Assembly (NCBI RefSeq): GCF_030687495.1
Contig: NZ_CP117435.1
Location: forward strand, 2,046,001-2,110,000
DNA length: 64,000 nt
Source of the DNA: Pseudomonas sp. FP453
Lineage (GTDB): Bacteria; Pseudomonadota; Gammaproteobacteria; Pseudomonadales; Pseudomonadaceae
Direction of reading: 5' to 3'
Below are positions 3,325 to 26,502 of the stretch, one piece after another; the first letter of the stretch is position 1, and each line of letters starts with the position of its first letter. The position numbers were made by a program, and so were the translations under genes. Under the pieces are notes generated by a model. That model worked only from the letters and a program-made list of their open reading frames with translations. It was not told the origin of the DNA and made no database searches.

Positions 3325-3440
3325 CCCAGTAGGCGAAGGTGTTGCCGACGAAGCGGCTCAGGGCGGCGAGTGCGCGCATGGGGTGTCCTTGTTATTGGAT
3401 TTTTGAAGTGGCAATGAGATCAATGTGGGAGCCGGGCTTG

Positions 3441-3534
3441 TGTGGGAGCTGGCTTGCCTGCGATAGCATCACCGCGGCCTGACTGAAGACCGAGGTGCCT
3501 GCATCGCAGGCAAGCCAGCTCCCACACTGACTGT
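3441..3534. repeat. REPIN between convergent/tandem minus genes
   Basis: An inverted pair of REP palindromes: GTGGGAGCTGGCTTGCCTGC on the left and its reverse complement on the right. A partial extra REP head (GTGGGAGCCGGGCTTG) sits immediately left at 3425-3440, as if two elements had recombined. Confidence 0.82.
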
Positions 3535-3555
3535 GCCCACTTGGGAACGGTGTTG

Positions 3556-4476
3556 TTAGATGCCCTGCGGGGTCTCTTCACCGCCGAGCGCTTCAACCAG
3601 CGCCGGGATGAACTCGCCGAATGTCAGCATCATCAGGGTGAAGCTCGCATCCAGTTGGCCCAGGGCTTCGTCGCCACCGTCTTGCTCGGCCTGGTCTTGC
3701 AGCAGGTCTTCGAACTTCAGGCGCTTGACGGTCATCTTGTCGTCGAGCATGAAGGACAGTTTGTCCTGCCAGGCCAGGGACAGCTGGGTCACGACTTTGC
3801 CGGTGGTCAGGTGCAGCTGGATCTCTTCGCCGGTCAGGTCCTGGCGCTTGCAGCGCACAATGCCGCCGTCTTCGTGGGTGTCGCGCAGTTCGCATTCGTC
3901 GAGGACGAAGAAGTCATCGGCCGGTTTCTGGGTGGTGACCCAGTCGGTCATGATCGCGGTTGGCGCGGTTTTCACGGTGAGCGGACGCACCGGCAGGGTG
4001 CCGATCACTTCACGCAGGGTGGAGAGCAGGTCTTCGGCGCGTTTCGGGCTGGCCGAGTTCACCAGGATCAGGCCTTGTTTCGGCGCGATGGCGGCGAAGG
4101 TCGACGAGCGACGAATAAAGGCACGCGGCAGGAAGGCCTGGATGATTTCATCCTTGAGCTGGTCGCGTTCCTTCTTATAGACCTTGCGCATTTGCTCGGC
4201 CTCGATCTCTTCGACTTTCTCTTTCAGTGCATCACGCACCACGCTGCCCGGCAGGATACGTTCTTCCTTGCGCGCGGCGATCAGCAGGAAGTCACCGCTG
4301 ACGTGAACCAGGGGAGCGTCTTCACCTTTACCAAAAGGTGCGACGAAACCGTAAGTGGTCAACTCCTGGCTTGCACAAGGGCGCGCCAGTTTGGTGGCCA
4401 TTGCAGTTTCCAACGCCTCGGCATCAACAGGCAGATCTTGGGTCAGGCGATAGATAAGCAGGTTCTTGAACCACAT
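3556..4476 (-). CDS. rdgC: Recombination-associated protein RdgC
   Basis: A 306-residue protein that starts [11 protein letters not shown] and shows the family's charged middle section ([26 protein letters not shown]) and C-terminal [27 protein letters not shown]. RdgC is a ring-forming nucleoid DNA-binding protein that antagonises RecA loading. The frame stays open upstream, but the ATG at 4476 has the right N-terminus for the family and a GGAGAG ribosome site at a suitable distance. It is transcribed alone on the minus strand. About 110 bases separate it from the divergent tRNA promoter. Confidence 0.96.
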
Positions 4477-4586
4477 GGGGTGAGTCTCTCCTTTATACAA
4501 AGGCGGGCATTATTGTCTTGATAGCGTCTGAGGCCAACCCTGCCTAAGCCATTGGAAGGCCTCAAAAAAAAGATTTAAGAAAGTGC

Positions 4587-4615
4587 TTGCCAGACCTTGG
4601 GTCGCTCCGTAGAAT
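4587..4615 (+). promoter_or_regulatory. tRNA operon promoter (copy 1)
   Basis: A TTGCCA -35 (4587-4592), a 17-base spacer and a TAGAAT -10 (4610-4615), followed by a GC-rich discriminator (GCGCGCC). This is the pattern of stringently controlled stable-RNA promoters. It precedes the tRNA-Val gene by about 20 bases. Confidence 0.75.
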
Positions 4616-4635
4616 GCGCGCCACACCGAGACGAA

Positions 4636-4711
4636 GGGTGATTAGCTCAGCTGGGAGAGCATCTGCCTTACAAGCAGAGGGTCGGCGGTTCGATCCCGTC
4701 ATCACCCACCA
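4636..4711 (+). tRNA. tRNA-Val (anticodon UAC), copy 1
   Basis: A 76-base cloverleaf with CCA encoded. The acceptor stem is GGGTGAT/ATCACCC, the anticodon loop reads CTTACAA with anticodon TAC, and the T-arm contains GGTTCGATCC. It is followed after 19 bases by tRNA-Asp; the pair ends at a shared terminator. An identical copy lies at 9168. Confidence 0.97.
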
Positions 4712-4730
4712 TTCGCTTCATGTGTTACGC

Positions 4731-4807
4731 GCAGCGGTAGTTCAGTCGGTTAGAATACCGGCCTGTCACGCCGGGGGTCGCGGGTTCGAGTCCCGTCCGC
4801 TGCGCCA
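4731..4807 (+). tRNA. tRNA-Asp (anticodon GUC), copy 1
   Basis: A 77-base tRNA with encoded CCA. The acceptor stem is GCAGCGG/CCGCTGC, the anticodon is GTC within CCTGTCACG, and the T-loop is GTTCGAGTC. It is cotranscribed with the preceding tRNA-Val. Confidence 0.97.
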
Positions 4808-4848
4808 TATTCGGAAACCTGGAACACTGAACGCCAGGTCACCACAGA

Positions 4849-4876
4849 AAGCCCGCTCATTGAGCGGGTTTTTTTT
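4849..4876 (+). terminator. Rho-independent terminator of tRNA pair 1
   Basis: The hairpin GCCCGCTCATTGAGCGGG, with flanking As on the 5' side, is followed by eight Ts. It ends the tRNA-Val/tRNA-Asp transcript. Confidence 0.9.
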
Positions 4877-4898
4877 CGTCTGCGATTTGTGTAGGAGC

Positions 4899-4938
4899 AA
4901 CCTTGTGCTGAGGGAGGAAGCTCCATCAGCACAAGGTT
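4899..4938. terminator. Inverted repeat beyond the TonB receptor stop
   Basis: Perfect 13-base arms (AACCTTGTGCTGA at 4899 and its complement ending at 4938) around a 14-base loop, placed 10 bases past the stop codon of the minus-strand receptor gene. It has no clear T-run, so a transcript-stabilising or weak terminator hairpin is the most that can be said. Confidence 0.5.
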
Positions 4939-4947
4939 TGTTGGCCT

Positions 4948-7380
4948 TTAGAAATCCCAGCGGGTGGTCACCATGACGTTGCGTGGCTCACCGTAGGCGG
5001 CGGAGTTATAGAAGCCGATATTGGTGTAGTAGCTCTTGTCGAAGATATTGTTGACGTTCAACGTCGCCGACAGGTTCTTGCTGATCTGATATTTGCTCAT
5101 CAGGTCCACCAGCCAATACGCCTCTTGGGAAAACTCCTCATAGCCGCCACGCGGGCTGTTATAGATGTCCTGCCAACCCACGCTCTGCCAGCGCACGCCG
5201 CCGCCGACGGTCAACTTGTCCAGGTTGCCCTTGAGTTTGTAGGTGGTGTACAGCTTGACCTGGTCTTCCGGTTCAAAGGTGGAGATCTTCACGCCCTTGT
5301 CGTCGCGCACGATCTTGTGGGTGTAGCCGGCCTGCAGCTGCCAGCCAGGGGCGATTTCGCCGGACATCTCCACTTCATAACCCTTTGTCACCGCCTTGCT
5401 GCTTTTATAGGCATAGTTGTTCGGTGTGGGCTTGAGGTTGTTGTACTCGTCGTCGGACAGCGCACGGTTGGACTCGTGGATTTCAAAGTAGGCGGCGCTG
5501 GCATTCACTCGACCGTCGAGATAGTCGGCCTTGATCCCCAGCTCCCAGTTCTGGCCTTCATCCGGTTCCAGCAGCTTGTTGTCGCGGTCGCGGTTGTAGT
5601 TTTCCTGCGGCATGAAGATATCGGTGTAGCTGGCGTAGAGCGCGTAGGTGTCGTTCAGGTCGTAGACCGCGCCGATATACGGCACGACGCGCCCGGACTC
5701 GCGGTAACTGGGGTTGTAACCGGTGACCTGATAGTTGACCAGGCGCGCGCCGAGCAGCACCTTGAGGTCGTCGGCGAGGTTCAGGCGTGTGGTCGCGTAC
5801 GCGCCGGTCTGGCGCACGGTATCGTCGATCAGCGATTGCGCCTTGCCCCAGTCCGGCATGGTTGCGTGGCCGTGCCAGTTATTGAAGTCGACGATATTGG
5901 GGTCGAGGTTCCAATAGCCTTTGCCTTTCCACTCCGAGGCGCTGATCGAGCCGCCCAGCACCAGCTCATGTTCACGCCCGCCGAGGCTGAACGGGCCGCT
6001 GACATACAGGTCGGCGGAGTCGCTGACGGTTTCCCCGGTGTATTTGCCCGAGGTCAGTTGCGCGGTGCCATCCGGCTGCGGCTGGTCGCCCTGGATCGAG
6101 CCCATCAAGGCGTGGTAGCCGTTGATCTTGTGGTCCAGTTGCAGCTTGCTCACCCAGCCATTGCCCAGGTCATGTTCGAGCATGGCGAACACGGTGCGGG
6201 TGTATTGCTCCCAACTGCTCCACTCGGCGGCGTCGTTGAACGAGCGCTTGACGCTGTTGCGATTGCCCTGGGAGTTGATCAGCGGAAAGCTGCCCGACCA
6301 GGACGAGCCTTTTGGCAACGTGTCCTGGTAGTCGCCGCCTACGGTCAGCAGGGTATCGGGCGACAGGTCGAACTCCATGATGCCGTAGTACGTCGGGCTC
6401 TTGCGCGAGTAGTGGTCCATGAACGAATGCTTGTCTTGGTAGGCCGCCACCGCACGGCCGCGTACGTTGCCGCTGTCGTTCAGCGGGCCGCTGACGTCCA
6501 GTTCGCTGCGGTAGTTGTCCCACGAACCGGCGCCGAGGGTGGCGTGGCCCTGGAAGTCGGCGGTGGGTTTCTTGCGCACCAGGTTGATCGTCGCGCCGAG
6601 GGAGCCGGCGCCAGTGAGCAGGCCGGTGGCGCCCTTGAGCACTTCGACGCGGTCGTAGATCGCCATGTCGCTCAGGGTGTTGCCCGCCGAATAGGCGACG
6701 TTGCGCGCAGTGGAAGGGATGCCGTCGTACTGGAAATTATTGATCGAGAAGCCGCGCGCATAGTAGTTGCTGCGCTCGGTGTCGAAGGCCGACACGGTGA
6801 TGCCGGGCGTGTGGCGCATCACGTCGTCGACGTTGGTCAGGCCGAAGTCATCCATGTGCTGGCGGGTGACCACGGAGACCGATTGCGGGGTTTCCTTGGG
6901 CGTCAGCACCAGGCGCGTCGAAGTCGCGAGCGTGCCAGGGGTGTAGGAGCCCGTGCCTTCGGTGATATTGCCCAGTTGGGTGGCGCTGACTTGGGTCGGG
7001 CTCAGTTCCATGCTGCCATCGCTGGCGATGGGCGCCGGTTGCAGGGCGTAGACCTGATCACCTTTTACCGCGCGATAACCGCTGCCCAGCAGCAACCGGT
7101 CGAAACCGTCCTGGATGCCGTAGCTGCCCTTGAGGCCAGGGCCGTTGAGGCCTTCCAGTTCGTGGGACTGGAACACGATGGCCACGCCGGCTTGTTGCGC
7201 AAAGCGATTGAGCGAGCTGCCCAGCGGCCCGGCCGGGATGTCGTAGGCCTGGGCGGCCACGTTGACGCTGTCCGCGTGTGCCGGGCTGATGCTCAGCACC
7301 GAGGCGCTGAGCATGGCCAGGGACAGCGGCGCGAGTTTCAGTAGGCCAAAGCGCCCACGCGGGTAGGAAGGGGTGTGCAT
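4948..7380 (-). CDS. TonB-dependent siderophore receptor/transducer (FpvA-like)
   Basis: An 810-residue outer-membrane receptor. It has a signal peptide ending near AHA-DS, then an STN/secretin signalling domain (YDIPAGPLGSSLNRFAQQAGVAIVF, about residues 45-110), then a plug domain (ETPQSVSVVTRQHMDDFGL... YDRVEVLKGATGLLTGAG), then a 22-strand barrel ending in an aromatic residue (TRWDF). The STN domain marks it as a transducer that signals to the FecR protein encoded just upstream. It should carry a ferric siderophore; the barrel resembles the pyoverdine/hydroxamate receptor group, but the ligand cannot be read. A Fur-like site lies just upstream, so iron repression is expected. Confidence 0.92.
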   Translation of the reverse strand: MHTPSYPRGRFGLLKLAPLSLAMLSASVLSISPAHADSVNVAAQAYDIPAGPLGSSLNRFAQQAGVAIVFQSHELEGLNGPGLKGSYGIQDGFDRLLLGSGYRAVKGDQVYALQPAPIASDGSMELSPTQVSATQLGNITEGTGSYTPGTLATSTRLVLTPKETPQSVSVVTRQHMDDFGLTNVDDVMRHTPGITVSAFDTERSNYYARGFSINNFQYDGIPSTARNVAYSAGNTLSDMAIYDRVEVLKGATGLLTGAGSLGATINLVRKKPTADFQGHATLGAGSWDNYRSELDVSGPLNDSGNVRGRAVAAYQDKHSFMDHYSRKSPTYYGIMEFDLSPDTLLTVGGDYQDTLPKGSSWSGSFPLINSQGNRNSVKRSFNDAAEWSSWEQYTRTVFAMLEHDLGNGWVSKLQLDHKINGYHALMGSIQGDQPQPDGTAQLTSGKYTGETVSDSADLYVSGPFSLGGREHELVLGGSISASEWKGKGYWNLDPNIVDFNNWHGHATMPDWGKAQSLIDDTVRQTGAYATTRLNLADDLKVLLGARLVNYQVTGYNPSYRESGRVVPYIGAVYDLNDTYALYASYTDIFMPQENYNRDRDNKLLEPDEGQNWELGIKADYLDGRVNASAAYFEIHESNRALSDDEYNNLKPTPNNYAYKSSKAVTKGYEVEMSGEIAPGWQLQAGYTHKIVRDDKGVKISTFEPEDQVKLYTTYKLKGNLDKLTVGGGVRWQSVGWQDIYNSPRGGYEEFSQEAYWLVDLMSKYQISKNLSATLNVNNIFDKSYYTNIGFYNSAAYGEPRNVMVTTRWDF

Positions 7381-7445
7381 GGTGAAGGCAATCCTTTACG
7401 TGTCGAATTACCTCTCTTGACGGGCAACTGCGAGAAAACCGGAAG

Positions 7446-7465
7446 CAAATGCGAATAATTATTTA
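7446..7465 (-). promoter_or_regulatory. Fur-box-like site before the TonB receptor
   Basis: The sequence CAAATGCGAATAATTATTTA, AT-rich with a GAATAATTATT core, closely resembles Pseudomonas Fur boxes. It spans the end of fecR and the short gap before the receptor, giving the receptor its own iron control besides ECF-sigma activation. Confidence 0.6.
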
Positions 7466-8442
7466 TTGGCGCTGTCGTCTGGGTCCACGAGGATCAGCCA
7501 GGGCGTAAAACTTCTGACCTTGATCGGTAAGGTTTGCGCGAGTAATTGCAGGGCGTGATCGCTGTCGTCCAAGGGGATGACGGCCGATACACGCAGGCTT
7601 TGCAGTGCCGCACGATCGAACTGCACTCGCCCGGTTCGATGGCGGGAGATTTCATCCAGCACCTCGGGCAATGGCCGGTTTTCCACCACCAACTGATGGC
7701 GGCGCCAGGCTTCGTTGATGCTGGCGGGGTCGATGCTGCCGCTCAGCTGCACGCTGTGGGCAGAGACCAGCGCCCGGGAGCCGGCATCGACTTCCAGGGT
7801 CTGCTGGGCATTCGCGCTCTGTGCCGCCACGCGCGACTGCAACATGCTCAGCACGGTGACATCGCCTTCACGCTTGACTACAAACCGCGTGCCCAGTGCG
7901 CGCAAAGTGCCTTGGGCGGTCTGCACGATAAACGGCCGCGTGCTGTCGTGGGCCACTTCCACGAGGATCTCGCCTTGCAGCAATTCGATGCGGCGCTGTT
8001 TGGCGTCGAAATGCAGGTTCGCCGCGCTGATGCCGTTGAGAGTCAATGTCGAGCCGTCCGCCAATTGCAGGGTTTGCCATTGGCCAGGGCCATTGCGCAC
8101 ATCGGCCATCCATTGTTGCGGGTAAGGGCTGACGAGCAGCGCCGCGGCCGGAATCGCCAGGCTGCACGCCAGCAGCAGGGCGCGTACGGCGCGCTTGCGA
8201 CGGTGGGATTTCTGCTGGGCAAACGCGGCATTCAAGGCGGCCCGCGCCGGTGCTTTTTTACCGCGCAGGGCCTGCATGCGCGCAATCACTTCTTCCATGC
8301 GCGCGGCGGCTGCGGCGTAGTGCGGGCCTTGTTGTTTCCAGCATTCGAACGCCAGGCGCTGGGCTTCGCTCAGCTCACCTTCGTGCAGGCGCAGCAGCCA
8401 TTCGGCGGCTTGTTCTTCGATCTGTTGGCGGGCGTCGTGCAT
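7459..8442 (-). CDS. FecR-family sigma factor regulator (system 1)
   Basis: A 327-residue inner-membrane anti-sigma/sigma-activator. The cytoplasmic N-terminus begins with the DUF4880 motif (EEQAAEWLLRLHEGELSEAQRLAFECW). One membrane helix is near residues 85-105 (ALLLACSLAIPAAALLVS). The periplasmic FecR domain (QLADGSTLTLN...RPFIVQTAQGTLRALGTRFVV) is followed by a DUF4974/STN-like C-terminus that contacts the receptor's signalling domain. It lies 6 bases behind the sigma gene and ahead of the receptor, the standard sigma-FecR-TonB order. Confidence 0.92.
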   Translation of the reverse strand: MHDARQQIEEQAAEWLLRLHEGELSEAQRLAFECWKQQGPHYAAAAARMEEVIARMQALRGKKAPARAALNAAFAQQKSHRRKRAVRALLLACSLAIPAAALLVSPYPQQWMADVRNGPGQWQTLQLADGSTLTLNGISAANLHFDAKQRRIELLQGEILVEVAHDSTRPFIVQTAQGTLRALGTRFVVKREGDVTVLSMLQSRVAAQSANAQQTLEVDAGSRALVSAHSVQLSGSIDPASINEAWRRHQLVVENRPLPEVLDEISRHRTGRVQFDRAALQSLRVSAVIPLDDSDHALQLLAQTLPIKVRSFTPWLILVDPDDSANK

Positions 8443-8448
8443 GTGCGC

Positions 8449-8967
8449 TCAGGTGTCCAGGCTGTGGCCGCAATGCACGAGCGCCTGGATCAGGTACTTG
8501 CGCACGGTGCGTTCCGACAGCTTGAGCTGGCGGGCGATCTGTTGCTGGGTCAGTTCTTCGAGGTAATACAGCACGAAGGCCTCGCGCGAATAGACGTGCA
8601 TGCCTTCGAGAATAAACGCGATCTGCTCCAGGGCCTCAAGGGTGGTGTGGATCTGCTCCGGCGACTGGAACCCTTCCAGGACGTCCACCGTCAGCGCCAA
8701 CTCTTGCAGGTAGGCGTTTTCGATCTGCTTGCGCCGGGCCTGGTCGATAAGCAGGCGCCGCGCCGTGGTGCTCAAGTACGCCCGCGGTTCGCGAATGCTT
8801 GCCACCGACTCGCGGGCGTTGAGGATACGCGCGAACGTGTCCTGCGCCAGGTCCGCCGCGTTCTGCCGGCAGCCCAATTTGCGCCGCAGCCACGCCAGCA
8901 GCCAGCCGTGATGCTCACTGTAGAGCGCGGTTATTTCCCGTTGGAAGGGCGGTTCACCCACAGACAT
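8449..8967 (-). CDS. ECF sigma factor, FecI-like (system 1)
   Basis: A 172-residue iron-starvation ECF sigma factor. Region 2 reads LYSEHHGWLLAWLRRKLGCRQNAADLAQDTFARIL and region 4 reads LEELTQQQIARQLKLSERTVRKYLIQAL. It should direct RNA polymerase to the adjacent receptor promoter when the receptor is occupied. It is the first gene of a sigma-fecR-receptor transcription unit, with a Fur-like site about 20-35 bases upstream of its start codon. Confidence 0.92.
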   Translation of the reverse strand: MSVGEPPFQREITALYSEHHGWLLAWLRRKLGCRQNAADLAQDTFARILNARESVASIREPRAYLSTTARRLLIDQARRKQIENAYLQELALTVDVLEGFQSPEQIHTTLEALEQIAFILEGMHVYSREAFVLYYLEELTQQQIARQLKLSERTVRKYLIQALVHCGHSLDT

Positions 8968-8987
8968 AGGCGTGGCTCAAGCGTTAT

Positions 8988-9002
8988 TGAGAATGGTTTT
9001 TA
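8988..9002 (-). promoter_or_regulatory. Fur-box-like site before sigma factor 1
   Basis: TGAGAATGGTTTTTA matches about 10 of 15 positions of the 7-1-7 Fur consensus, with a strong left half-site, in the expected place just upstream of an iron-starvation sigma gene. Confidence 0.45.
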
Positions 9003-9120
9003 ATTGTGCGGCCAAGTGTCGGGTAAACGCAATAGACTCGCGTTTGTGGGGTGAAAAGCCCGTATTTACGGGCTTTGCGTCCCCCTTTGAAAAATATTTC
9101 AAATAAATTGCATATAAAAC

Positions 9121-9148
9121 AAGACATTGCGGATTTTTGGTGTAAGAT
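9121..9148 (+). promoter_or_regulatory. tRNA operon promoter (copy 2)
   Basis: A weak -35 (AAGACA), a 16-base spacer and a TAAGAT -10 followed by GCGCCC. The -10 and discriminator parallel copy 1, but the -35 regions differ, so the near-identity of the two tRNA loci starts around the -10. Confidence 0.5.
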
Positions 9149-9167
9149 GCGCCCACACCGAAACGAA

Positions 9168-9243
9168 GGGTGATTAGCTCAGCTGGGAGAGCATCTGCCT
9201 TACAAGCAGAGGGTCGGCGGTTCGATCCCGTCATCACCCACCA
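9168..9243 (+). tRNA. tRNA-Val (anticodon UAC), copy 2
   Basis: Identical over all 76 bases to the copy at 4636, including the encoded CCA. It is followed by the second tRNA-Asp. Confidence 0.97.
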
Positions 9244-9262
9244 TTCGCTTCAAGTGTTACGC

Positions 9263-9339
9263 GCAGCGGTAGTTCAGTCGGTTAGAATACCGGCCTGTCA
9301 CGCCGGGGGTCGCGGGTTCGAGTCCCGTCCGCTGCGCCA
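9263..9339 (+). tRNA. tRNA-Asp (anticodon GUC), copy 2
   Basis: Identical over 77 bases to the copy at 4731. The 19-base spacer from tRNA-Val differs from copy 1 at a single position. Confidence 0.97.
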
Positions 9340-9380
9340 TATTCGGTAACCTGGAACACTGAACGCCAGGTCACCACAAG

Positions 9381-9409
9381 AAAGCCCGCTCATTGAGCGG
9401 GCTTTTTTT
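9381..9409 (+). terminator. Rho-independent terminator of tRNA pair 2
   Basis: The hairpin AAGCCCGCTCATTGAGCGGGCTT runs into a T-run, the same stem as in copy 1 with a slightly longer base-paired foot. Confidence 0.9.
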
Positions 9410-9440
9410 CGTCTGCGATTTTTGCAGGAACAAACCTGTT

Positions 9441-9533
9441 GTGGCGAGGGAGCTTGCTCCCGCTGGGCTGCGTAGCGGCCCCAAAAATCTTGGGAGCGCT
9501 TCGCACTCCAGCGGGAGCAAGCTCCCTCGCCAC
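9441..9533. repeat. REP-like inverted repeat of a second family
   Basis: GTGGCGAGGGAGCTTGCTCCCGC on the left and its reverse complement on the right, about 45 bases apart. This is a REPIN-type element of a different palindrome family from the GCTGGCTTGCC elements, located past the stop codon of the second receptor. Confidence 0.8.
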
Positions 9534-9545
9534 GACGTATCAGGT

Positions 9546-11993
9546 TCAGAACTGGTACTTGAGGCCCACCGTCATATTGCGCGGGTCACCGTAGAATGCG
9601 CTGCTATACAGACCGTAGCCGGCGTAGTACTCGCGGTCGAAGAGGTTGTTCAGGTTCAGCGACGCGCTGAGGTTCTTGCTCACATCATAGCGCGCCATCA
9701 ACCCCACCACGGCGAAACTGCCTTCGTCGGCGCGCGCATCCATCGGGTAGGTGATGGCCGAATAGGTTGAACTCTGCCACGTCACATTGCCGCCCACTGT
9801 CAGGTCACGCAGGGCACCTTCAAGCTTGTAGGCCGTGGACAGTTTGAACTGGCGCTCCGGCAGGTTGGTGTTGATGCGGTTGCCGTCCTTGTCCCGGGGT
9901 TGGGCGTAGGTGAAGCCGGCAAGCATCTGCCAACCCGGCGTCAGTTGGCCGGACAGCTGCATTTCAAACCCTTTGGTGGTGGTGCCGCTGACGGCCTTGT
10001 AGGCCGTAAGGCCTCCCGTGCGAACGCCGTCGTCCACCCCCAGGTTGTCCTGCTTGATGGTGAACACGGCGACACTGGTGTTGAGCGCACCGTCGAAATA
10101 TTCCGACTTCAGGCCCGCTTCATAGCTTTGCCCCGTCAGCGGTTCCAGCGCCTTGTCGTTTTTGTCGAACAACGACTGCGGCGTGAAGATGTCGGTGTAG
10201 CTGACGTAGAGCGAGTGGATGTCATTGAGGTCGTAGACGATGCCAGCATAAGGCACCAGCTTGCCGGTTTTCCTGGCGCTGTCGTCCGACGGATCATTGG
10301 GCTTCCATCCGTAGGTCAGGGTGCCTTCACGCTCATAGTTGACGACCCGGCTGCCGAGGATCACATGCCAGTCGTCCAGCGGGTTCAGGCGCAATGCCGC
10401 GTACCCACCGGACTCCTTGATCTTGTAGCCCTGGCTCTGTTGGAAGGTGAACGCATCCGGCTGAGGCGGGTTGTTGCCCCAGGTCTCGTAGTTCACGTTG
10501 AGGCTGCCACCGTCCAGTGACTGATAGTCCGAGCGGCGGTTACTCGCATTCAAACCCACCACCAACTCATGGGTACGCCCCAGCAGCGAAAAAGGCCCCG
10601 TCGCGTAGGCATCCGCGGAGTCGGCGTTGATCGTGTAGGTCACGCGGCTGCGCTGCAGTTCGGCAAGGTGGGTCGTCTCGTCGGGGAACGGCCCCCAGCC
10701 GACGATGTTGCCTTGCAACTGATCGGTGGTGCCTTTCCAGTGGCTGGCTTCTACGCGCAACAGCCAGTCATTGTCGAAGCGCTGCTCGATGCCGGCAAAG
10801 TATTTGGTGCTTTGGCTGTCGGCATAGGTCCATTTGGCCGCCGGGTTGGTCGAGCGTTTGAAGTTGGCGCGGTTGCCATCGGCGTTGTACAGCGGCAGCT
10901 GGCCAAAACTGGAGCCGTCGGCGTCGATTTTCTGATAGTCGATGCCGGCGTACAGCGTGGTGTCCGGCGTGATATCGGCCTCGCCGATGGCGTAGAACAC
11001 GTCCTTTTTCTGCGTGTAGTAATCAATAAATGAATGGTTGTCCTGATGAGCTGCCACCACGCGCCCACGCAGCGCGCCGTTTTCGGACAACGGCCCGGAC
11101 AGGTCCATTTCCGTGCGGTAGCGATCCCAGGTGCCACCACTGCCGGAGACATAGCCCTGGAAGTCTTTGGTCGGACGTTTGCGGACCAGGTTGACCACCC
11201 CCGCCGGGCTGCCGACGCCACTCATCAACCCCGTGGCGCCGCGTACCACTTCGACGCGGTCGTAGATGGCCATGTCGCGCACGCCCAGGCCGTTGGTATT
11301 GGTGGTGAAGTCTGACGTCGGCACACCGTCGTACTGAAAACTGTCCAAGGCAAAACCGCGGGAGTAGAAGTTGTAACGCTCACTGTCGTCGTGCATCACC
11401 GTCACGCCAGGGGTTTGCCCGAGGACTTCGGCGATGGAACCCAGGCCCTGGTCAGTCATGTGCTGGCGGGTGATGACGGTCACCGACTGGGGAGTCTCGC
11501 GCAGGGACATGGGCAATTTGGTTGCCGTGCTGGTGCTGCCCGTGGTGTAGGAGCCGGAGTTTTCGGTGGTCTGGCCCAGTTGTTGGCCGGTGATACTGGT
11601 GGCCCCCAGCTCAATGCTTGACCCATCTCCCAATGGATACAGCGTGTAGGAGCCGTCCCCGGAGGCGACCGCATTTAGCCCGCTACCGCGCAGCAGGCTG
11701 CGCAATCCCTCATCGATGCCGGTGTTGGCATTCAGCCCGGTACTGCGCTTGCCTTCCACCAGCGCCGGGTCGATCGGCAGGGTGATGCCGGCCTGGCTGG
11801 CGAACTCGGCCAGCGCCGTGCTCAAGGCGCCGGCGGGAATCGTGTAATGGCGCACGTGCTGCTGGCCGATAGGTTCTGCCAGCAGGGGGGGGCTGGTCAC
11901 CACCGAGCCTGCAACCAGCAGGCCCAAGGTCGCCCCGCGTATTGCCAGGGCTAAGGAGTGGAAGGGTAGGACGTACCGCTGTGGTTGCCGCAT
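9546..11993 (-). CDS. TonB-dependent siderophore receptor/transducer (system 2)
   Basis: An 815-residue outer-membrane receptor with the same architecture as the one at 4948: signal sequence, STN domain (YTIPAGALSTALAEFASQAGITLPI), plug (ETPQSVTVITRQHMTDQGLGSIAEVL... YDRVEVVRGATGLMSGVG) and a barrel ending LKYQF. I chose the ATG at 11993 over a longer in-frame extension because it gives a proper signal peptide and has GGGGAA as ribosome site. The two receptors share many motifs but are clearly diverged, so each probably binds a different ferric siderophore. It is the third gene of a sigma-fecR-receptor unit. Confidence 0.91.
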   Translation of the reverse strand: MRQPQRYVLPFHSLALAIRGATLGLLVAGSVVTSPPLLAEPIGQQHVRHYTIPAGALSTALAEFASQAGITLPIDPALVEGKRSTGLNANTGIDEGLRSLLRGSGLNAVASGDGSYTLYPLGDGSSIELGATSITGQQLGQTTENSGSYTTGSTSTATKLPMSLRETPQSVTVITRQHMTDQGLGSIAEVLGQTPGVTVMHDDSERYNFYSRGFALDSFQYDGVPTSDFTTNTNGLGVRDMAIYDRVEVVRGATGLMSGVGSPAGVVNLVRKRPTKDFQGYVSGSGGTWDRYRTEMDLSGPLSENGALRGRVVAAHQDNHSFIDYYTQKKDVFYAIGEADITPDTTLYAGIDYQKIDADGSSFGQLPLYNADGNRANFKRSTNPAAKWTYADSQSTKYFAGIEQRFDNDWLLRVEASHWKGTTDQLQGNIVGWGPFPDETTHLAELQRSRVTYTINADSADAYATGPFSLLGRTHELVVGLNASNRRSDYQSLDGGSLNVNYETWGNNPPQPDAFTFQQSQGYKIKESGGYAALRLNPLDDWHVILGSRVVNYEREGTLTYGWKPNDPSDDSARKTGKLVPYAGIVYDLNDIHSLYVSYTDIFTPQSLFDKNDKALEPLTGQSYEAGLKSEYFDGALNTSVAVFTIKQDNLGVDDGVRTGGLTAYKAVSGTTTKGFEMQLSGQLTPGWQMLAGFTYAQPRDKDGNRINTNLPERQFKLSTAYKLEGALRDLTVGGNVTWQSSTYSAITYPMDARADEGSFAVVGLMARYDVSKNLSASLNLNNLFDREYYAGYGLYSSAFYGDPRNMTVGLKYQF

Positions 11994-20037: not shown

Positions 20038-21540
20038 TTACGGCGCCGGGTTGATTGTTACGCAGTCTTTACGCGGTTCAGGCTGTTGGCGGCCGAGGAA
20101 GAGATAGACGATCACGGCCGTCAGCGCGGTGAACACGGCCAGCACTTGCAACAAGGTATTGAACCCTGCGTTGTAGGCCGTACGCAGTTTCGCTATGGGA
20201 ATTTGCCCGGTCTGTTGCAGATCACCCATGACCAGATGTTGTGCCGCCCGTGACAGTTCTTCTGGCGACAGGCTGCTGTCGAGGCTCAGGTGACGCGCCA
20301 CCAGCGCACTCAATACCGCCACGGTAACCGCCAGCGCCACGCCTTCGCTGGCCACGCGGGTGGTGTTGAAAATTCCCGCTGCCATGCCTGCTTGCTCCTT
20401 GGGTACCACGCTGATCGACAGGCCGTCCATCAAGCCCCACGGCACTGCTGTGCCCAAGCCGATCAGCAGCAAGGCGGCGATCAGTTGACCGTGTGCGTCG
20501 GCGGGCAGGATGCTCAACCGATAAAGGCCAGCGGCGGCCAGCAAAAATCCTACGGTGCACAGGCGCCCGGCCGACACCCAACGGGTCAACGACGCCGCCA
20601 GCATCGGCACCAGCAGCATAGGCGCCGACAAGGCGAGCATGCGCAGCCCCGCGTCGAACGCGCTGAGGCCATCGACGCCGATAAAGCGGATCGGCAGCAA
20701 TACCACCAACACGATAAAGCAGTAGCAGGTGCCGATTGGCAGGATCTGCACGCCGACGAAGCGCGGGAAACGCAACAGCCGCAGCTCCAGCATGGGCTGC
20801 TTGGCACGGGTTTCCACCCACGCAAACACGGCGGCAAGCAACCCCGACACAACGAGCAATGCCTGGATCAACGGCGCGTTCCAGCCGTGCCCAGGCGCGA
20901 TAATCACGGCACTGGTGAAGGCAATCAACAGACCCGAAAACGCCAGTACGCCGGGTGTGTCCAGGTGCTGAGCGTGCGGGTTGCGGCTTTCCCGCAGGTT
21001 CGGCACGGCAAACACCAGGGACACCCCCGCCAGCAGTGCGGTAAACAGGAAGATCCCGCGCCAGCCCAGCCACTCGATCAACACGCCCGACAACAGCGGG
21101 CCAAACGCGAGGCCGACGCCAAACGTGGTGCCCAACACGCTGAACGCCCGCGTGCGCGCATGGCCGTCGAACTCCTGCGCCAGCGCGGCCGTCCCGCCCG
21201 CCAAGGCGGCAGCGGCGGCGATGCCTTGGGCGCCGCGCAACAGGTCCAGCCAGAACACCGTGGGCGCCACCGCCAGCAACAGGGAGACGCCGGCAAACAA
21301 GCCCATGCCGCCGATGAACAAGCGCTTGCGCCCATAACGGTCGGCAAGGGTGCCGGCGGCCATCAGCAGGCTGCCGAAACTGAGCATGAACGCATTGGTG
21401 ATCCATGCCAGTTCAGTGGGCGTGGCGTCAAACGCCCGGCCAATGAACGGCGTGGCCACGGCGCCGCCGGTAAAACTCATCGGCAAGACCAGTGCGGCCA
21501 GGCAAATCGCCGCGAGGATGGTGTAGCGATGGGGGTGCAT
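20038..21540 (-). CDS. MFS transporter, DHA2 (EmrB/QacA) type
   Basis: A 500-residue, 14-helix MFS exporter with the DHA2 motif A region (GTLADRYGRKRLFIGGMGLFAG) and antiporter motif C (LGTTFGVGLAFGPLLSGVLIEWLGWRGIF). Proteins of this set pump out hydrophobic drugs or metabolites in exchange for protons. A LysR regulator is divergently encoded 113 bases away and an inverted repeat lies between them, so substrate-inducible control by that regulator is likely. The substrate is unknown. Confidence 0.9.
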   Translation of the reverse strand: MHPHRYTILAAICLAALVLPMSFTGGAVATPFIGRAFDATPTELAWITNAFMLSFGSLLMAAGTLADRYGRKRLFIGGMGLFAGVSLLLAVAPTVFWLDLLRGAQGIAAAAALAGGTAALAQEFDGHARTRAFSVLGTTFGVGLAFGPLLSGVLIEWLGWRGIFLFTALLAGVSLVFAVPNLRESRNPHAQHLDTPGVLAFSGLLIAFTSAVIIAPGHGWNAPLIQALLVVSGLLAAVFAWVETRAKQPMLELRLLRFPRFVGVQILPIGTCYCFIVLVVLLPIRFIGVDGLSAFDAGLRMLALSAPMLLVPMLAASLTRWVSAGRLCTVGFLLAAAGLYRLSILPADAHGQLIAALLLIGLGTAVPWGLMDGLSISVVPKEQAGMAAGIFNTTRVASEGVALAVTVAVLSALVARHLSLDSSLSPEELSRAAQHLVMGDLQQTGQIPIAKLRTAYNAGFNTLLQVLAVFTALTAVIVYLFLGRQQPEPRKDCVTINPAP

Positions 21541-21653: not shown

Positions 21654-22547
21654 ATGGACAGCCTGGGTGGTGTGATTTCCTTCGTTAAAACGGCAGAGGC
21701 CCTCAGTTTTGTCGCGGCGGCGCGGAGCCTGGGGATTTCGGCGTCGGCAGTCGGTAAAAACGTCGCCAAGCTGGAAGCGTCGCTGAATGTGCGGTTGCTG
21801 CAGCGCAGTACGCGCAAAGTCAGTCTGACGGCGGAGGGGCAATTGTTTTACGAGCGTTGTCGGAAAATCCTCGACGACTTGCAGGACGCGCAGGCCATGC
21901 TCTCCCATGTGGTCCAGCAACCCCGTGGCAAGTTGCGGGTGAGTCTGCCCACCATCGGCTATCGCTTCCTCATGCCGCACATGGCGGCATTCCGCAGCGC
22001 CTACCCGGAGGTTGAGCTGGAGCTGGATTTCAACGACCTGCTGGTGGACGTGATCGAGGAGGGCATCGATGTGGCGATCCGCAGCGGCGGCCTGGCGGAT
22101 TCGAAGCTGATGGCGCGTCGGCTCGGGCCGTTCAGGTTTCTGCTATGTGCCTCGCCGGAATATTTCCAGCGCCATGGCCGGCCGCTGGTGGTGAAGGATC
22201 TGGAGCACCACGCCTGCCTGCGTTACCGGTTTGCCACCACCGGCAAAATCATGGACTGGACCCTGGCCGCCGACCCCGCATTCACCGGGCTGCGCCTGCC
22301 CACGGCGATGACCCTGAACAACATGGAAGCCATGCTCATGGCCGCCGTCGACGGGCACGGCATCGCCTTTGTCCCGGATTTTCTCGCCCGCGAGGCCTTG
22401 GCCCAGGGGCGCCTGCACAGCGTGCTGGATGAGCAGTGCAGCGATAGGGGACAGTTCTGGGCGTTGTGGCCGTCCAGCCGTCACCTGTCGCCGAAAATCC
22501 GCGTGTTCGTGGACTTTATTGCCGAGCGCCTGTTCCCCTCAAGCTAA
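21654..22547 (+). CDS. LysR-family transcriptional regulator
   Basis: A 297-residue LTTR of the CrgA/DmlR-like group: wHTH at 1-60 (FVKTAEALSFVAAARSLGISASAVGKNVAKLEASLNVRLLQRSTRKVSLT), then the effector domain (HMAAFRSAYPEVELELDFNDLLVDVIEEGIDVAIRSGGL). It is divergent from a DHA2 exporter, which is its most probable target. Its stop overlaps by four bases that of the convergent catalase-like gene. Confidence 0.9.
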   Translation: MDSLGGVISFVKTAEALSFVAAARSLGISASAVGKNVAKLEASLNVRLLQRSTRKVSLTAEGQLFYERCRKILDDLQDAQAMLSHVVQQPRGKLRVSLPTIGYRFLMPHMAAFRSAYPEVELELDFNDLLVDVIEEGIDVAIRSGGLADSKLMARRLGPFRFLLCASPEYFQRHGRPLVVKDLEHHACLRYRFATTGKIMDWTLAADPAFTGLRLPTAMTLNNMEAMLMAAVDGHGIAFVPDFLAREALAQGRLHSVLDEQCSDRGQFWALWPSSRHLSPKIRVFVDFIAERLFPSS

Positions 22548-23710
22548 GGCGCGTTGCGGCTGTGGCGGTAATCACTGACGGCCTCGTACACCGCTTTGCG
22601 CAGGCGATTGATACCGCCGATGGGACGGTGCTCCGCCACGCCGAACCACGGGTTGAAGGACTGGTTGTCACACGCCAGGTTCTGCTCAGGGGTGTCGAAG
22701 TCCTGTGCCGGGATGCGAATTTTCGCCACGGTTTCGTAGGGCGCGTCGCTTTCTTTCCATTCGATGCTGGTGTCTTCGATCGGCATGAATTTCTGCGGGT
22801 TCTGCCGCTGGATCTGCAACACAAAACAGGCCGCGACGCGGTCGGTGGACAGTTGCTGAGTCAACGCGCTGCGCAGGAAGTTCGGCAGGTCCTGGTTCTG
22901 TTTCGGCAGCACGTACTGCGGGCAGTTTTGCGCATCGGGTGCGACGCGGAACTTGGCATTCGCTGCGCCGAACTTGTAGGGCGAGACGGAAAAATACGTG
23001 GTCTGCGTCGGGCTGGCCGGGGCTGGCGCCAGGGTGGCCAGGGCGATAAACAGGTGACGCACTTGCCAGCTGCGCGGGTCGACCTTGGGGAAGAACGCCA
23101 GGACCTTTTTGCCATCCGCCTGGGCGCCGATGTTCTGCGCGTATTCCGCCACGTCGCTGACAAAAAAGTTCGGGTGGCTGAACATCACGAAGTCTTGTTC
23201 GCTGCGGTTTTGCTGGTCGGCCAGCAGTTGCTTGCCCGGCACATCCAGCAGCTTGAGCGCCATGCCGCGCGCATCGCGAATGCTGTCGAACTGCGGGTAG
23301 GCGTTGCCGTTGGACAAGCGCATCGTCGCCTGCCAGGTCTTGCCCGGTTCGGCGAACACGCCTTGGCGCAGCGCCGGGTCGAGGTCCGCCAGCACGCTGA
23401 CTTCGGCCTTCACGCAGCCATGGGCCTTGGCGTGGGCATCGCGCAGGTAGCGCGTGCCTTCACGGTGCTGGTCAACGATGCGCACGGCTGTCTGGATGAT
23501 GCCTTGGGTCATGGCGGCTTCGCCTGGCGGAATCTGCTCATCCGGCGATACCGGGCCACTGTGCTGCCAGGCATACCAGGCGGTGGCGCCGAGCCAGCCG
23601 AGCAGGCCGAGGCCCACCAGCCACAGGAGGGTCTTGCCGAGAAAGGCGCCGATGCGCAGCCACAGGCGTGCGAGCAGGGAAGGGCGGTCGTAGGGGGATC
23701 GAATCATCAT
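22544..23710 (-). CDS. Catalase-like heme protein (y4iL-type)
   Basis: A 388-residue protein with an N-terminal membrane anchor (GKTLLWLVGLGLLGWLGATAWYAW) followed by a divergent catalase-fold domain (AHGCVKAEVSVLADLDPALRQGVFAEPGKTWQATMRLSNG; QDFVMFSHPNFFVSDVAEY). It resembles the small catalase-related y4iL group, a relative of allene oxide synthases and hydroperoxide-metabolising heme proteins, rather than a true catalase. Its start overlaps the di-heme protein gene by four bases, so the two are cotranscribed and probably act together in the periplasm. Peroxide or lipid-hydroperoxide turnover is an inference. Confidence 0.78.
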   Translation of the reverse strand: MMIRSPYDRPSLLARLWLRIGAFLGKTLLWLVGLGLLGWLGATAWYAWQHSGPVSPDEQIPPGEAAMTQGIIQTAVRIVDQHREGTRYLRDAHAKAHGCVKAEVSVLADLDPALRQGVFAEPGKTWQATMRLSNGNAYPQFDSIRDARGMALKLLDVPGKQLLADQQNRSEQDFVMFSHPNFFVSDVAEYAQNIGAQADGKKVLAFFPKVDPRSWQVRHLFIALATLAPAPASPTQTTYFSVSPYKFGAANAKFRVAPDAQNCPQYVLPKQNQDLPNFLRSALTQQLSTDRVAACFVLQIQRQNPQKFMPIEDTSIEWKESDAPYETVAKIRIPAQDFDTPEQNLACDNQSFNPWFGVAEHRPIGGINRLRKAVYEAVSDYRHSRNAP

Positions 23711-25515
23711 GGCAGTTGTTGCTCCAGCGGGCCGCCCAGTACTTTGAGGTATTCCAGCAGCGCCCAGCGTTCCTGCGGCAGCAAGCCACGGCCGATGACG
23801 CCATTGCCACGCTGGCCAGCACGGAATTCGTGGCCGCTGTTGTGGTTGCCGGTGATGTTGGTATCGAACAGGAAGGCGTTCTTGAACGCGCCGGTCTGAA
23901 AGCCGAGGTGGCGCGGGTCGTAGTCGAAGGTGCCTTTATAGAAGGTGGTGCTGCGTTCGTCCTGGGGCGACAGCAATTGGTAGATCGTCGGCACCGAACC
24001 GTTGTGCAAGAACGGCGGCGTGGCCCACACACCGGCCAGTGGCCGGGCCTTGTAGGCGCGCAGTTCGCGCACGCCGATGGGCAGGCCGTAGCCGTCCAGG
24101 CGCGGACGCTCGGCGGGAGTGACGCCGGCGGCGCGGTAGGCGTGCTCCTCGACGAATGCAGTGACGTAGGCCAGGCCCTTGGCCACGGACATTTTTTTCA
24201 GGTCCAGGGGTTCGGTTGGCGTGGGGTGCAACTGCACATTCAGCTGGGCCAGTTCGGCCGGGTCCCATTGCAGGGCGCTGAGGTCGTAGCGTTGGTCGGC
24301 GATGTTGTTGGCGGTGCCGGGGTCGGTGCCGATGTAGTCCACCGGGAGCATTTTCAGTTGCTGTACCGGGCGGCCGTTTTCCTCGGTGACGCTGGGCACA
24401 TGGCAGCCGGCGCAGTTTTCGGCGAAGAGTGCGCGGCCCTGGGCAGCGAGGGGTTTGTCTACTGCGCCGAACAGGTCTTCGGGCCAGGCCGGCGGCTTGA
24501 GGCGTTGCAGGGTTTCTTCGATCAGGTTGAGGTCACGCACGCGTACGCTGGACGGGTAGCGCGCATCACCTTGCAGGGGTTGGCCCGCGCTGTCGAAAAA
24601 GCTCAGGGTGGCACCGACGCCGAGGGCTTCGCCGATGTTGCGCGCCATGGGCTGCTGGGCCGAGCCGTTCCATTGCACCCAGTCGAAGGTCCAGATGTCC
24701 CACAGCTGTGGGTAATCCACCGGTGCGTTGGCGATGCGATAGTTATCCGGGGAGATCGCGTCGCCGAAGCTGGCATTGGCGATGCGGCCGAACGCGTCGG
24801 TTCGGCCGGGGCCTTCCTGGGTGGGGTAGAGGCCGCGGTGCGTGTCGTTCCAGGCGACTTTGAGGAAGGTGTTCAGCGACTGCTTGAAGTCCTCGCGCAG
24901 TTGGCTGTGCTCGGCGTCGTAGCGGTCGCCCAAGACCTGGCGGGCGAAACGCTCGAATTTCCACGGGTTGTAGTAGGTGGCGGTAAGGCTGGCGACGAGG
25001 GCCTGGCCGAAGCTGCCACCACGCAGGGTCGGTACGCTGGACGGCAGCACATGCTGGGCCGAACCGCCGTCGATGCGCAGGGCCTGGCCGTTGAAATGCA
25101 ACTCGCCGGTGTGGCACGCGGCGCAGGTGATGTCCAGGAATTCGGCACGGTTGCCGGCGTTCTGGTGACGGGCGAAACCTACCGGCAGGTTGCCGGGGTT
25201 TTGCGCGGTGGCGACTTGCTTGGGGTCCACCAGGAAGCCGAAGCGCGCCAGGTACTCGGGCGTGGCGAAACGCTGTTCGGAAAACGGCAGCTCAAGGGCG
25301 GTGAACCAGTCGTAGTGCAGGCCCTTGACCTGGGTGCCCTGGGGCGTGAAGTAGTAGGTCTGGCGGTCGGCGGCACTCCATTGCTCGCCGTAGTGCACCT
25401 GCTGCACGGCCACGTAGTCCGGCAGCTTGGGGTTGACGATGTAATAGAGCACCACGGCCAGGATCAGCCCCAGTGCTGCGAGTATCAGCAGGAAAACACG
25501 GGAAAAAATGCGCAA
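23707..25515 (-). CDS. Di-heme cytochrome c peroxidase / RoxA-like dioxygenase
   Basis: A 602-residue protein with an N-terminal membrane/signal helix (FLLILAALGLILAVVLYY) and two c-type heme sites, CAACH (131-135) and CAGCH (368-372). It is much longer than the ~320-residue CcpA peroxidases and has the size and layout of the RoxA-like group, which includes rubber oxygenase and the P. aeruginosa fatty-acid dioxygenase/diol synthase pair. It opens with TTG, preceded by AGGA at 8 bases; no better start is visible. It is cotranscribed with the catalase-like gene. Oxygenation of an unsaturated lipid or hydrocarbon is a reasonable hypothesis; simple H2O2 reduction is the alternative. Confidence 0.82.
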   Translation of the reverse strand: MRIFSRVFLLILAALGLILAVVLYYIVNPKLPDYVAVQQVHYGEQWSAADRQTYYFTPQGTQVKGLHYDWFTALELPFSEQRFATPEYLARFGFLVDPKQVATAQNPGNLPVGFARHQNAGNRAEFLDITCAACHTGELHFNGQALRIDGGSAQHVLPSSVPTLRGGSFGQALVASLTATYYNPWKFERFARQVLGDRYDAEHSQLREDFKQSLNTFLKVAWNDTHRGLYPTQEGPGRTDAFGRIANASFGDAISPDNYRIANAPVDYPQLWDIWTFDWVQWNGSAQQPMARNIGEALGVGATLSFFDSAGQPLQGDARYPSSVRVRDLNLIEETLQRLKPPAWPEDLFGAVDKPLAAQGRALFAENCAGCHVPSVTEENGRPVQQLKMLPVDYIGTDPGTANNIADQRYDLSALQWDPAELAQLNVQLHPTPTEPLDLKKMSVAKGLAYVTAFVEEHAYRAAGVTPAERPRLDGYGLPIGVRELRAYKARPLAGVWATPPFLHNGSVPTIYQLLSPQDERSTTFYKGTFDYDPRHLGFQTGAFKNAFLFDTNITGNHNSGHEFRAGQRGNGVIGRGLLPQERWALLEYLKVLGGPLEQQLP

Positions 25516-25761
25516 GATAACTATCCTTGTCGAGTTGTCGCGTTGTTATGCCACTACGCCACAGGTGCGGCAAGTGGCCATGAGCCCGGAACAGGCGGTC
25601 CCGCGATCCTTCGCGGGCCCTCATCATGAATGAAAATGCTTTTAAACACGTGAACTTATCGCAAGTTTGTGGCTCACATGCCGGTAGCCATTGGTCGTGG
25701 CCGCCTGATAAGCTCGCGACTTTATTCGAATGCCCTTTTGGCGCATGAACAAGGAAATAGC

Positions 25762-26502
25762 ATGAAACAGCATCGGTTGGCGGCGGCGGTGGCCCTGGTT
25801 AGCCTGGTACTTGCGGGTTGTGATTCGCAGACCAGCGTAGAGCTGAAAACCCCGGCGCAGAAAGCTTCCTACGGCATCGGCCTGAACATGGGCAAGAGCC
25901 TGGCTCAAGAAGGCATGGATGACCTGGACTCCAAAGCGGTAGCCCAAGGCATCGAAGACGCCGTCGGCAAGAAAGAGCAGAAGCTCAAAGACGACGAACT
26001 GGTTGAAGCGTTTGCCGCACTGCAAAAGCGTGCTGAAGAACGCATGACCAAGATGAGCCAGGAGTCGGCAGCCGCCGGCAAGAAGTTCCTCGAAGACAAC
26101 GCCAAGAAAGACGGCGTCGTCACCACCGCTTCCGGTCTGCAGTACAAGATCACCAAGAAAGCCGACGGCGCACAGCCTAAGCCGACTGACGTGGTGACTG
26201 TTCACTACACCGGCAAGCTCACCAACGGCACCACCTTTGACAGCTCCGTGGATCGCGGTAGCCCGATTGACCTGCCGGTCAGCGGTGTGATCCCGGGTTG
26301 GGTCGAAGGCCTGCAACTGATGCACGTGGGCGAGAAGGTCGAGTTGTACATTCCGTCCGACCTGGCCTACGGCGAGCAGAGCCCGAGCCCGGCGATTCCA
26401 GCCAACTCCGTGCTGGTGTTCGACCTGGAACTGCTGGCCATCAAGGACCCAGCCAAGGCTGAAGCCCCTGAGGCACCTGCTGCACCAGCCGCCAAGAAGT
26501 AA
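25762..26502 (+). CDS. FKBP-type peptidyl-prolyl isomerase lipoprotein (Mip/FklB-like)
   Basis: A 246-residue protein starting with a lipoprotein signal (LVSLVLAGC, lipidated C20). It has an alpha-helical FKBP N-terminal dimerisation domain (ASYGIGLNMGKSLAQEGMDDLDSKAVAQGIEDAV) and a C-terminal FKBP domain (VVTVHYTGKLTNGTTFDSSVDRGSPIDLPVSGVIPGWVEGLQLMHVGEKVELYIPSDLAYG). The tail is Ala/Pro/Lys-rich. It catalyses proline isomerisation of envelope proteins. The ATG has an AAGGA ribosome site. A terminator follows 18 bases after the stop, so it is a single-gene unit. Confidence 0.93.
   Translation: MKQHRLAAAVALVSLVLAGCDSQTSVELKTPAQKASYGIGLNMGKSLAQEGMDDLDSKAVAQGIEDAVGKKEQKLKDDELVEAFAALQKRAEERMTKMSQESAAAGKKFLEDNAKKDGVVTTASGLQYKITKKADGAQPKPTDVVTVHYTGKLTNGTTFDSSVDRGSPIDLPVSGVIPGWVEGLQLMHVGEKVELYIPSDLAYGEQSPSPAIPANSVLVFDLELLAIKDPAKAEAPEAPAAPAAKK

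Follow-up and report, generated by a model that had tools for sequence, protein, structure and literature searches.

In Pseudomonas aeruginosa, the PA2078-PA2077 operon encodes two enzymes of the 'FadCcp' type, PA2077 being an oleate 10S-dioxygenase (10S-DOX) and PA2078 a diol synthase (7,10-DS). According to the available portions of the report on this operon (PMC4496055), mutation of either heme His abolishes PA2077 activity, overexpressed PA2077 is lethal in the absence of PA2078 and still toxic when only chromosomal PA2078 is present, and cells expressing the whole operon grow normally. The oxylipins formed are reported to favour biofilm formation and to act in communication between cells (PMC5155153, PMC6377657). 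In another described system, that of Nostoc punctiforme, a 10S-DOX is paired with a catalase-related 10S-hydroperoxide lyase (PMC9410191, PMC13049297 and PMC11719350, in the parts available). The present analysis concerns a 64,000-nucleotide stretch of the Pseudomonas sp. FP453 genome (contig NZ_CP117435.1, positions 2,046,001 to 2,110,000; hereafter the window), in which a gene for a di-heme c-type oxygenase-like protein is followed by an overlapping gene for a catalase-related heme protein (Table 1). The best explanation of this pair, to which we give an even chance, is a membrane-anchored, periplasm-facing two-enzyme system that would oxygenate a lipid and consume the resulting hydroperoxide.

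Table 1. Features of the di-heme/catalase-like locus (positions in the window; arrows give the reading direction)
Feature	Position	Strand	Details
Di-heme c-type oxygenase-like gene	23707..25515 (25515->23707)	minus	Open reading frame, TTG start, 602 residues
Predicted N-terminal hydrophobic helix, di-heme protein (about residues 7-27)	25435..25497	minus	Hydropathy peak 3.29 (17-residue segment starting at residue 7)
Catalase-related heme protein gene	22544..23710 (23710->22544)	minus	Open reading frame, ATG start, 388 residues
Predicted N-terminal helix, catalase-like protein (about residues 12-49)	23564..23677	minus	Hydropathy peak 1.78 (17-residue segment starting at residue 28)
ATGA 4-bp overlap of both genes	23707..23710	minus	Partner ATG overlaps the TGA stop of the upstream di-heme gene
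FKBP-type isomerase gene	25669-26502	plus	Upstream of the di-heme gene, divergent
LysR gene	21654-22547	plus	Tail to tail with the end of the catalase-like gene, 4-bp overlap
Major facilitator superfamily (MFS) efflux gene	20038-21540		Divergent from the LysR gene

The first-pass annotation of this DNA described, at 22544..25515, a protein with two CxxCH sites and an overlapping partner as a coupled gene pair. Both open reading frames (ORFs) were confirmed there, and they are not chance frames, since third codon positions are richer in GC than second positions, by 0.39 in the di-heme ORF and by 0.38 in the catalase-like one, close homologues of the same length were found for both, and the gene order is conserved. 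Among 248 Pseudomonadaceae genomes an orthologous catalase-like gene is present in 126, representing 6 of 19 genera, and in 124 of these 126 it lies directly downstream of the di-heme gene on the same strand, the 5' end of the PF21419 domain preceding the beginning of the catalase-like match by 341-783 bp. The two exceptions are G606, for which no PF21419 row is listed, and G551, in which the genes are on different contigs. The partner is absent for 12 of 136 PF21419 rows among the matches listed, weak rows being left out. A di-heme gene is adjacent in 43 of the best 80 catalase-like stretches out of 572 confirmed; some of the others are truncated, either at contig ends or through ORF calling. 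In a survey of 398 Pseudomonadota genomes, which includes some of the 248, 38 have an NF040606 match above the cut-off, 42 have the catalase-like protein, and in 20 the two are adjacent by coordinates. These 20 pairs come from 14 Pseudomonadaceae, three other Gammaproteobacteria (G336, G318, G385) and three members of other classes (G373, G047, G187), with the gene order reversed in G373, and the intergenic distance ranges from the overlap seen in the window up to about 275 bp (L068). A protein search with alignment A4 returned solely Pseudomonas-like rows among the 120 matches listed. The pairing is old and strict, its conservation supports the earlier reading of the two genes as a pair, and the ATGA overlap suggests that their translation is coupled.

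The di-heme protein was previously assigned to the branch of RoxA and the P. aeruginosa diol synthase and not to the classical CcpA peroxidases, and this assignment is supported. The protein matches NF040606 over positions 1-523 of the 524-position profile (585.2 bits), contains a PF21419 match and has its two heme sites, CAACH (C131-H135) and CAGCH (C368-H372), spaced 237 residues apart. The HNGSVP motif is present as FLHNGSVP at residues 502-509 (H504), a G-N-x-N-x-G-H motif is found in the C-terminal part, and H562 is the candidate C-terminal axial ligand. Its nearest solved structure is that of the dioxygenase RoxA (PDB 4b2n), whose pocket, according to PMC6797691, is made up solely of hydrophobic residues, F301 and F317 lying close to O2, and lacks an acid-base catalyst. 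The site of RoxA W302, between the hemes, is occupied by W282, which aligns with the VQW of a PA2077-like protein from G507, a genome of another genus of the same family. At the F301 site a Gln is present (Q281), as it is in PA2077 and PA2078 according to the available part of PMC4496055.

No match to PF03150 (CCP_MauG) at E <= 1 was found in the di-heme protein or anywhere in its own genome, two CcpA controls scoring 191.7 and 199.9 bits with the same profile. Both controls carry 'NPVEM' or 'SPVEM', the Glu of which has a catalytic role, after their W(D/N)G motif, and this is absent after W282-N-G of the window protein. On these two grounds the classical CcpA identity was rejected. A best match to H2O2-reducing peroxidases with the matching ligand pattern was looked for and is not what this protein has.

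The relation to the P. aeruginosa operon can be followed in G507, which possesses both a pair of the window type and a tandem of two di-heme genes, PA2078-like and PA2077-like, in the published order. These two were assigned by features reported in the available part of PMC4496055, not by name, and are not identical to the published proteins. The PA2078-like gene of 1875 bp encodes a protein with CAGCH130/CAACH365 and Ser at the W302 site (NF040606, 488 bits), and the PA2077-like protein has CxxCH sites 245 residues apart and Trp at that site (529 bits); the window protein is about 32-34% identical to the G507 proteins. A tree was built from 37 di-heme proteins, its root serving for display only and the position of the long G373 branch being unsure; in it the PA2077/2078-like pair is sister (97/95) to the G047 di-heme protein, which has a catalase-like partner, and a 30-row clade (100/99) includes both this pair and the window protein. 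It is also worth mentioning that at five loci (L115, L116, L117, L118, L120) the NF040606 proteins are about 920-945 residues long, carry an extra domain and lie beside a protein of about 600 residues, which in L115, the only one of these loci scanned singly, is a cyclase-tetratricopeptide repeat protein.

The partner was described earlier as a protein with a catalase-related fold of the kind found in hydroperoxide-converting enzymes, and its predicted structure agrees with this, the model being nearest to coral allene oxide synthase (cAOS; 1u5u) and Mycobacterium avium MAP-2744c, at 17-22% identity. Its heme-site residues are the distal H93, the heme arginines R90, R131 and R382, and the proximal Y375 within RxxxY; by motif and profile alignment R90, R131, R382, H93 and Y375 correspond to cAOS R64, R102, R360, H67 and Y353. 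The cAOS-type Arg triad, distal His and proximal Tyr are present in 47 of 47 aligned rows, H93 having been in the search pattern and hence partly selected. A true monofunctional catalase seems unlikely, as PF00199 is matched only at its borderline (25.4 bits, cut-off 25; 24.4 bits in the genome search) and only over positions 45-142 of 383. Elsewhere the same genome has three full-length matches to catalase, plus one more to the catalase family, so that a dedicated H2O2 scavenger is less needed, though possible. A second non-classical catalase-family gene of this genome (G000:C1:3824775-3825614, minus strand) has a 392-residue frame and scores 102 bits.

Membrane anchoring was also proposed in the first-pass annotation. 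By hydropathy, both proteins have hydrophobic N-terminal segments, probably a signal anchor in the di-heme protein and a membrane anchor in its partner. A hydrophobic stretch close to the N-terminus (17 residues with a mean hydropathy of >= 1.6) is found in 46 of 49 partnered and 21 of 54 unpartnered catalase-like proteins, some of the latter (e.g., L191) probably being cut pairs. Since the attachment of c-type hemes takes place in the periplasm, the catalytic domains of both proteins probably face that compartment.

In the proposed mechanism, the N-terminal heme (H135) of the di-heme protein would bind O2 and introduce oxygen into an unsaturated lipid, likely a fatty acid, with the C-terminal heme (H372, H562) acting in electron transfer. 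The lipid hydroperoxide would then be handed over to the probably co-translated catalase-related protein, which could rearrange, cleave or reduce it, giving the final oxylipin and averting hydroperoxide toxicity. The scheme is built on the sequence class, the heme-site residues, the predicted catalase fold, the strict pairing and the hydrophobic N-termini; the periplasmic side, the lipid substrate, the O2 chemistry and the hand-over are what we infer from these. That an oxygenation is followed by consumption of the hydroperoxide is suggested by analogy, because the toxicity of PA2077 is relieved by the complete operon.

A number of observations weigh against this mechanism. The counterpart of RoxA F317 in the di-heme protein is aliphatic, L298 or V300 in two possible alignments, and RoxA variants at F317, Leu included, lost most or all of their activity and no longer retained O2 at the heme (PMC6797691). 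The AlphaFold2 (AF2) model of the di-heme protein is weak, with a predicted local distance difference test (pLDDT) score of 70.6 and residues 227-324 under 50, and Foldseek found no match to it at E <= 0.001; given the low confidence in this part, that comparison does not bear on the heme pocket. In the tree, the window protein falls into a 19-row sub-clade with further catalase-partnered proteins and the PA2077/2078-like pair into an 11-row one. The partner has Ala (A92) at the site of cAOS Thr66 and probably Ser (S178) in place of the distal Asn found in 36 of 47 relatives; S178 is placed at cAOS N137/catalase N148 by profile alignment with catalase, a weak direct alignment with cAOS placing the site elsewhere. 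Searched as a single sequence against solved structures, the partner matched only 1u5u, at E 0.45, and one family member, beside An_peroxidase (L073), is devoid of the distal His. At L163 a catalase-like gene has a neighbour of the amine-oxidase type (PF01593), proteins of this type forming H2O2, and a catalase-like domain is fused to LodA in a protein of 985 residues (L105:4052-7009, minus strand, genome G186). LodA/catalase-like fusions are described, LodA being a quinoprotein of the H2O2-forming lysine oxidase type (PMC4417212). This fusion and the amine-oxidase-type neighbour suggest simple H2O2 removal in some family members. The neighbours in the window itself are the FKBP isomerase, LysR and MFS genes, and a tally of neighbours (the best 25 of 125 Pfam families) is led by general hydrolases and dehydrogenases. 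It takes in 105 of the 117 neighbours, from 21 of the 25 non-Pseudomonadaceae loci. Left out were six catalase-like proteins, one di-heme protein and five ORFs that were long or doubtful, as well as L116-L118, which are near-duplicates, and L121, a fragment. Made without a control set, the tally neither shows nor excludes lipid enrichment.

Among 19 chosen, not random, loci in which the catalase-like gene is unpaired or fused, those with a neighbouring or fused protein being scanned, five are lipid-related, two contain likely H2O2 makers (L105, L163) and 12 contain neither. The lipid-related ones have An_peroxidase (L073, L178), phospholipases (L092, L182) and an MCRA family protein (L089), which we take to have an oleate-hydratase role. 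The L178 locus of Methylorubrum rhodesianum (4845-7490, plus strand) has one ORF of 881 residues in which a catalase-like domain at the N-terminus is joined to An_peroxidase (PF03098) at the C-terminus, possibly a one-protein version of a dioxygenase with its hydroperoxide enzyme. Two pairs (L062, L063) are part of a four-gene run of patatin, SGL, di-heme and catalase-like genes, and another NF040606 gene is located next to An_peroxidase (L077). A lipoxygenase search of the window's own genome is uninformative, since none of the controls gave a match.

Of the competing explanations the foremost is periplasmic peroxide defence, in which the di-heme protein would be a peroxidase and its partner would remove H2O2 or organic peroxides, with no deliberate lipid product. 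It accords with the NCBI family names, 'di-heme-cytochrome C peroxidase' and 'catalase family protein', with the catalase distal His and proximal Tyr retained in the partner, and with the associations at L105 and L163; against it stand the missing PF03150 match and 'SPVEM/NPVEM' motif, RoxA as the nearest structure and the three full-length catalase matches of the genome, and we regard it as unlikely. Less probable still is oxygenation of another unsaturated periplasmic substrate (isoprenoid, terpenoid, hopanoid or aromatic side chain), the partner merely protecting the hemes or removing leaked peroxide. RoxA cleaves polyisoprene (PMC6797691, available portions), a distant relative outside the main NF040606 clade lies beside a glucose-methanol-choline (GMC) oxidoreductase-hydrolase (L071) and other relatives lie beside P450s (L075, L112), but the characterised operon with relatives in NF040606 acts on fatty acids (PMC4496055, in the part available), and F301 and F317 of RoxA are replaced by Gln and an aliphatic residue. 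That the di-heme protein itself converts hydroperoxides made elsewhere, as PA2078 does, with the catalase-like protein as a second sink, fits the NF040606 membership of the PA2078-like protein but is very improbable; against it stands W282, retained as in PA2077 and RoxA, where PA2078 has Ser.

Some further arrangements were noted. At two loci from distinct lineages (L075:6675-10109, minus strand, and L112:5841-9199, plus strand) an NF040606 di-heme gene is directly followed by a P450 gene, which is reminiscent of the fungal dioxygenase-cytochrome P450 (DOX-CYP) enzymes. The L072 locus (2767-10559, genome G086), a cluster in which a strong An_peroxidase match (366 bits) and a flavin reductase of the old yellow enzyme (OYE) type accompany two di-heme proteins of distant kinship, looks like another oxygenated-lipid pathway. 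In the window, the LysR regulator could control either the di-heme/catalase-like pair or the divergent MFS efflux gene.

The pairing of a di-heme with a catalase-related protein was held in the first-pass annotation to be undescribed, and no description of it was found by searches of the open-licence PMC literature at the level of listed records and the opening lines of abstracts. The principle of a heme dioxygenase with a catalase-related hydroperoxide enzyme is already known from N. punctiforme, with a dioxygenase like cyclooxygenase (COX), so that novelty does not extend to the principle. Tentatively, an undescribed periplasmic oxylipin system that couples a di-heme c-type dioxygenase to a catalase-related hydroperoxide enzyme may be present in roughly every second Pseudomonadaceae genome sampled (126 of 248), the P. 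aeruginosa operon being a variant with a di-heme duplicate as its second enzyme. If so, bacterial periplasmic oxylipin synthesis would be far commoner than the one known case. Annotation as peroxidase plus catalase implies stress defence, and a lipid-signalling or lipid-modifying pathway would have been overlooked in a large part of the pseudomonads. Three dioxygenase types, lipoxygenase, COX-like and di-heme c-type, would then share the catalase-related fold as second enzyme.

With the PA2078-PA2077 operon the window pair shares NF040606 membership, as scored on the PA2077/2078-like proteins of G507, two c-type hemes 235-245 residues apart, the HNGSVP and C-terminal G-N-x-N-x-G-H motifs, the two-gene organization and, as proposed, the logic of oxygenating and then using up the hydroperoxide. 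Its di-heme protein resembles PA2077 in having Trp at the W302 site (W251 in PA2077), together with Gln at the F301 site. The second protein, however, has a catalase fold and is not a di-heme paralogue, and both window proteins look anchored, whereas cleavable signal peptides are predicted for PA2077 and PA2078 in the available part of PMC4496055. RoxA is similar in its two-heme layout, the Trp between the hemes and the C-terminal GN.N.GH motif, but a rubber oxygenase was rejected on the scores of 50.9 bits for NF050033 (cut-off 1000) and 56.2 bits for NF050034 (cut-off 900) and on the distal Phe residues, neither F301 nor F317 being conserved. RoxA is not known to have a catalase-like partner. 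The coral allene oxide synthase/hydroperoxide lyase enzymes (1u5u, 3dy5) and M. avium MAP-2744c (3e4w, 3e4y) have in common with the window partner the predicted fold, the Arg triad, the distal His and the proximal Tyr; they differ in the low identity, in the residues at the Thr66 and distal Asn sites and in the N-terminal hydrophobic helix of the window protein, and the coral enzyme is partnered by a lipoxygenase. The N. punctiforme system, the original study of which is reportedly that of Brash in 2014, comes close to the proposed reading in placing a heme dioxygenase alongside a catalase-related hydroperoxide enzyme, although its dioxygenase is a COX relative and not a di-heme c-type protein.

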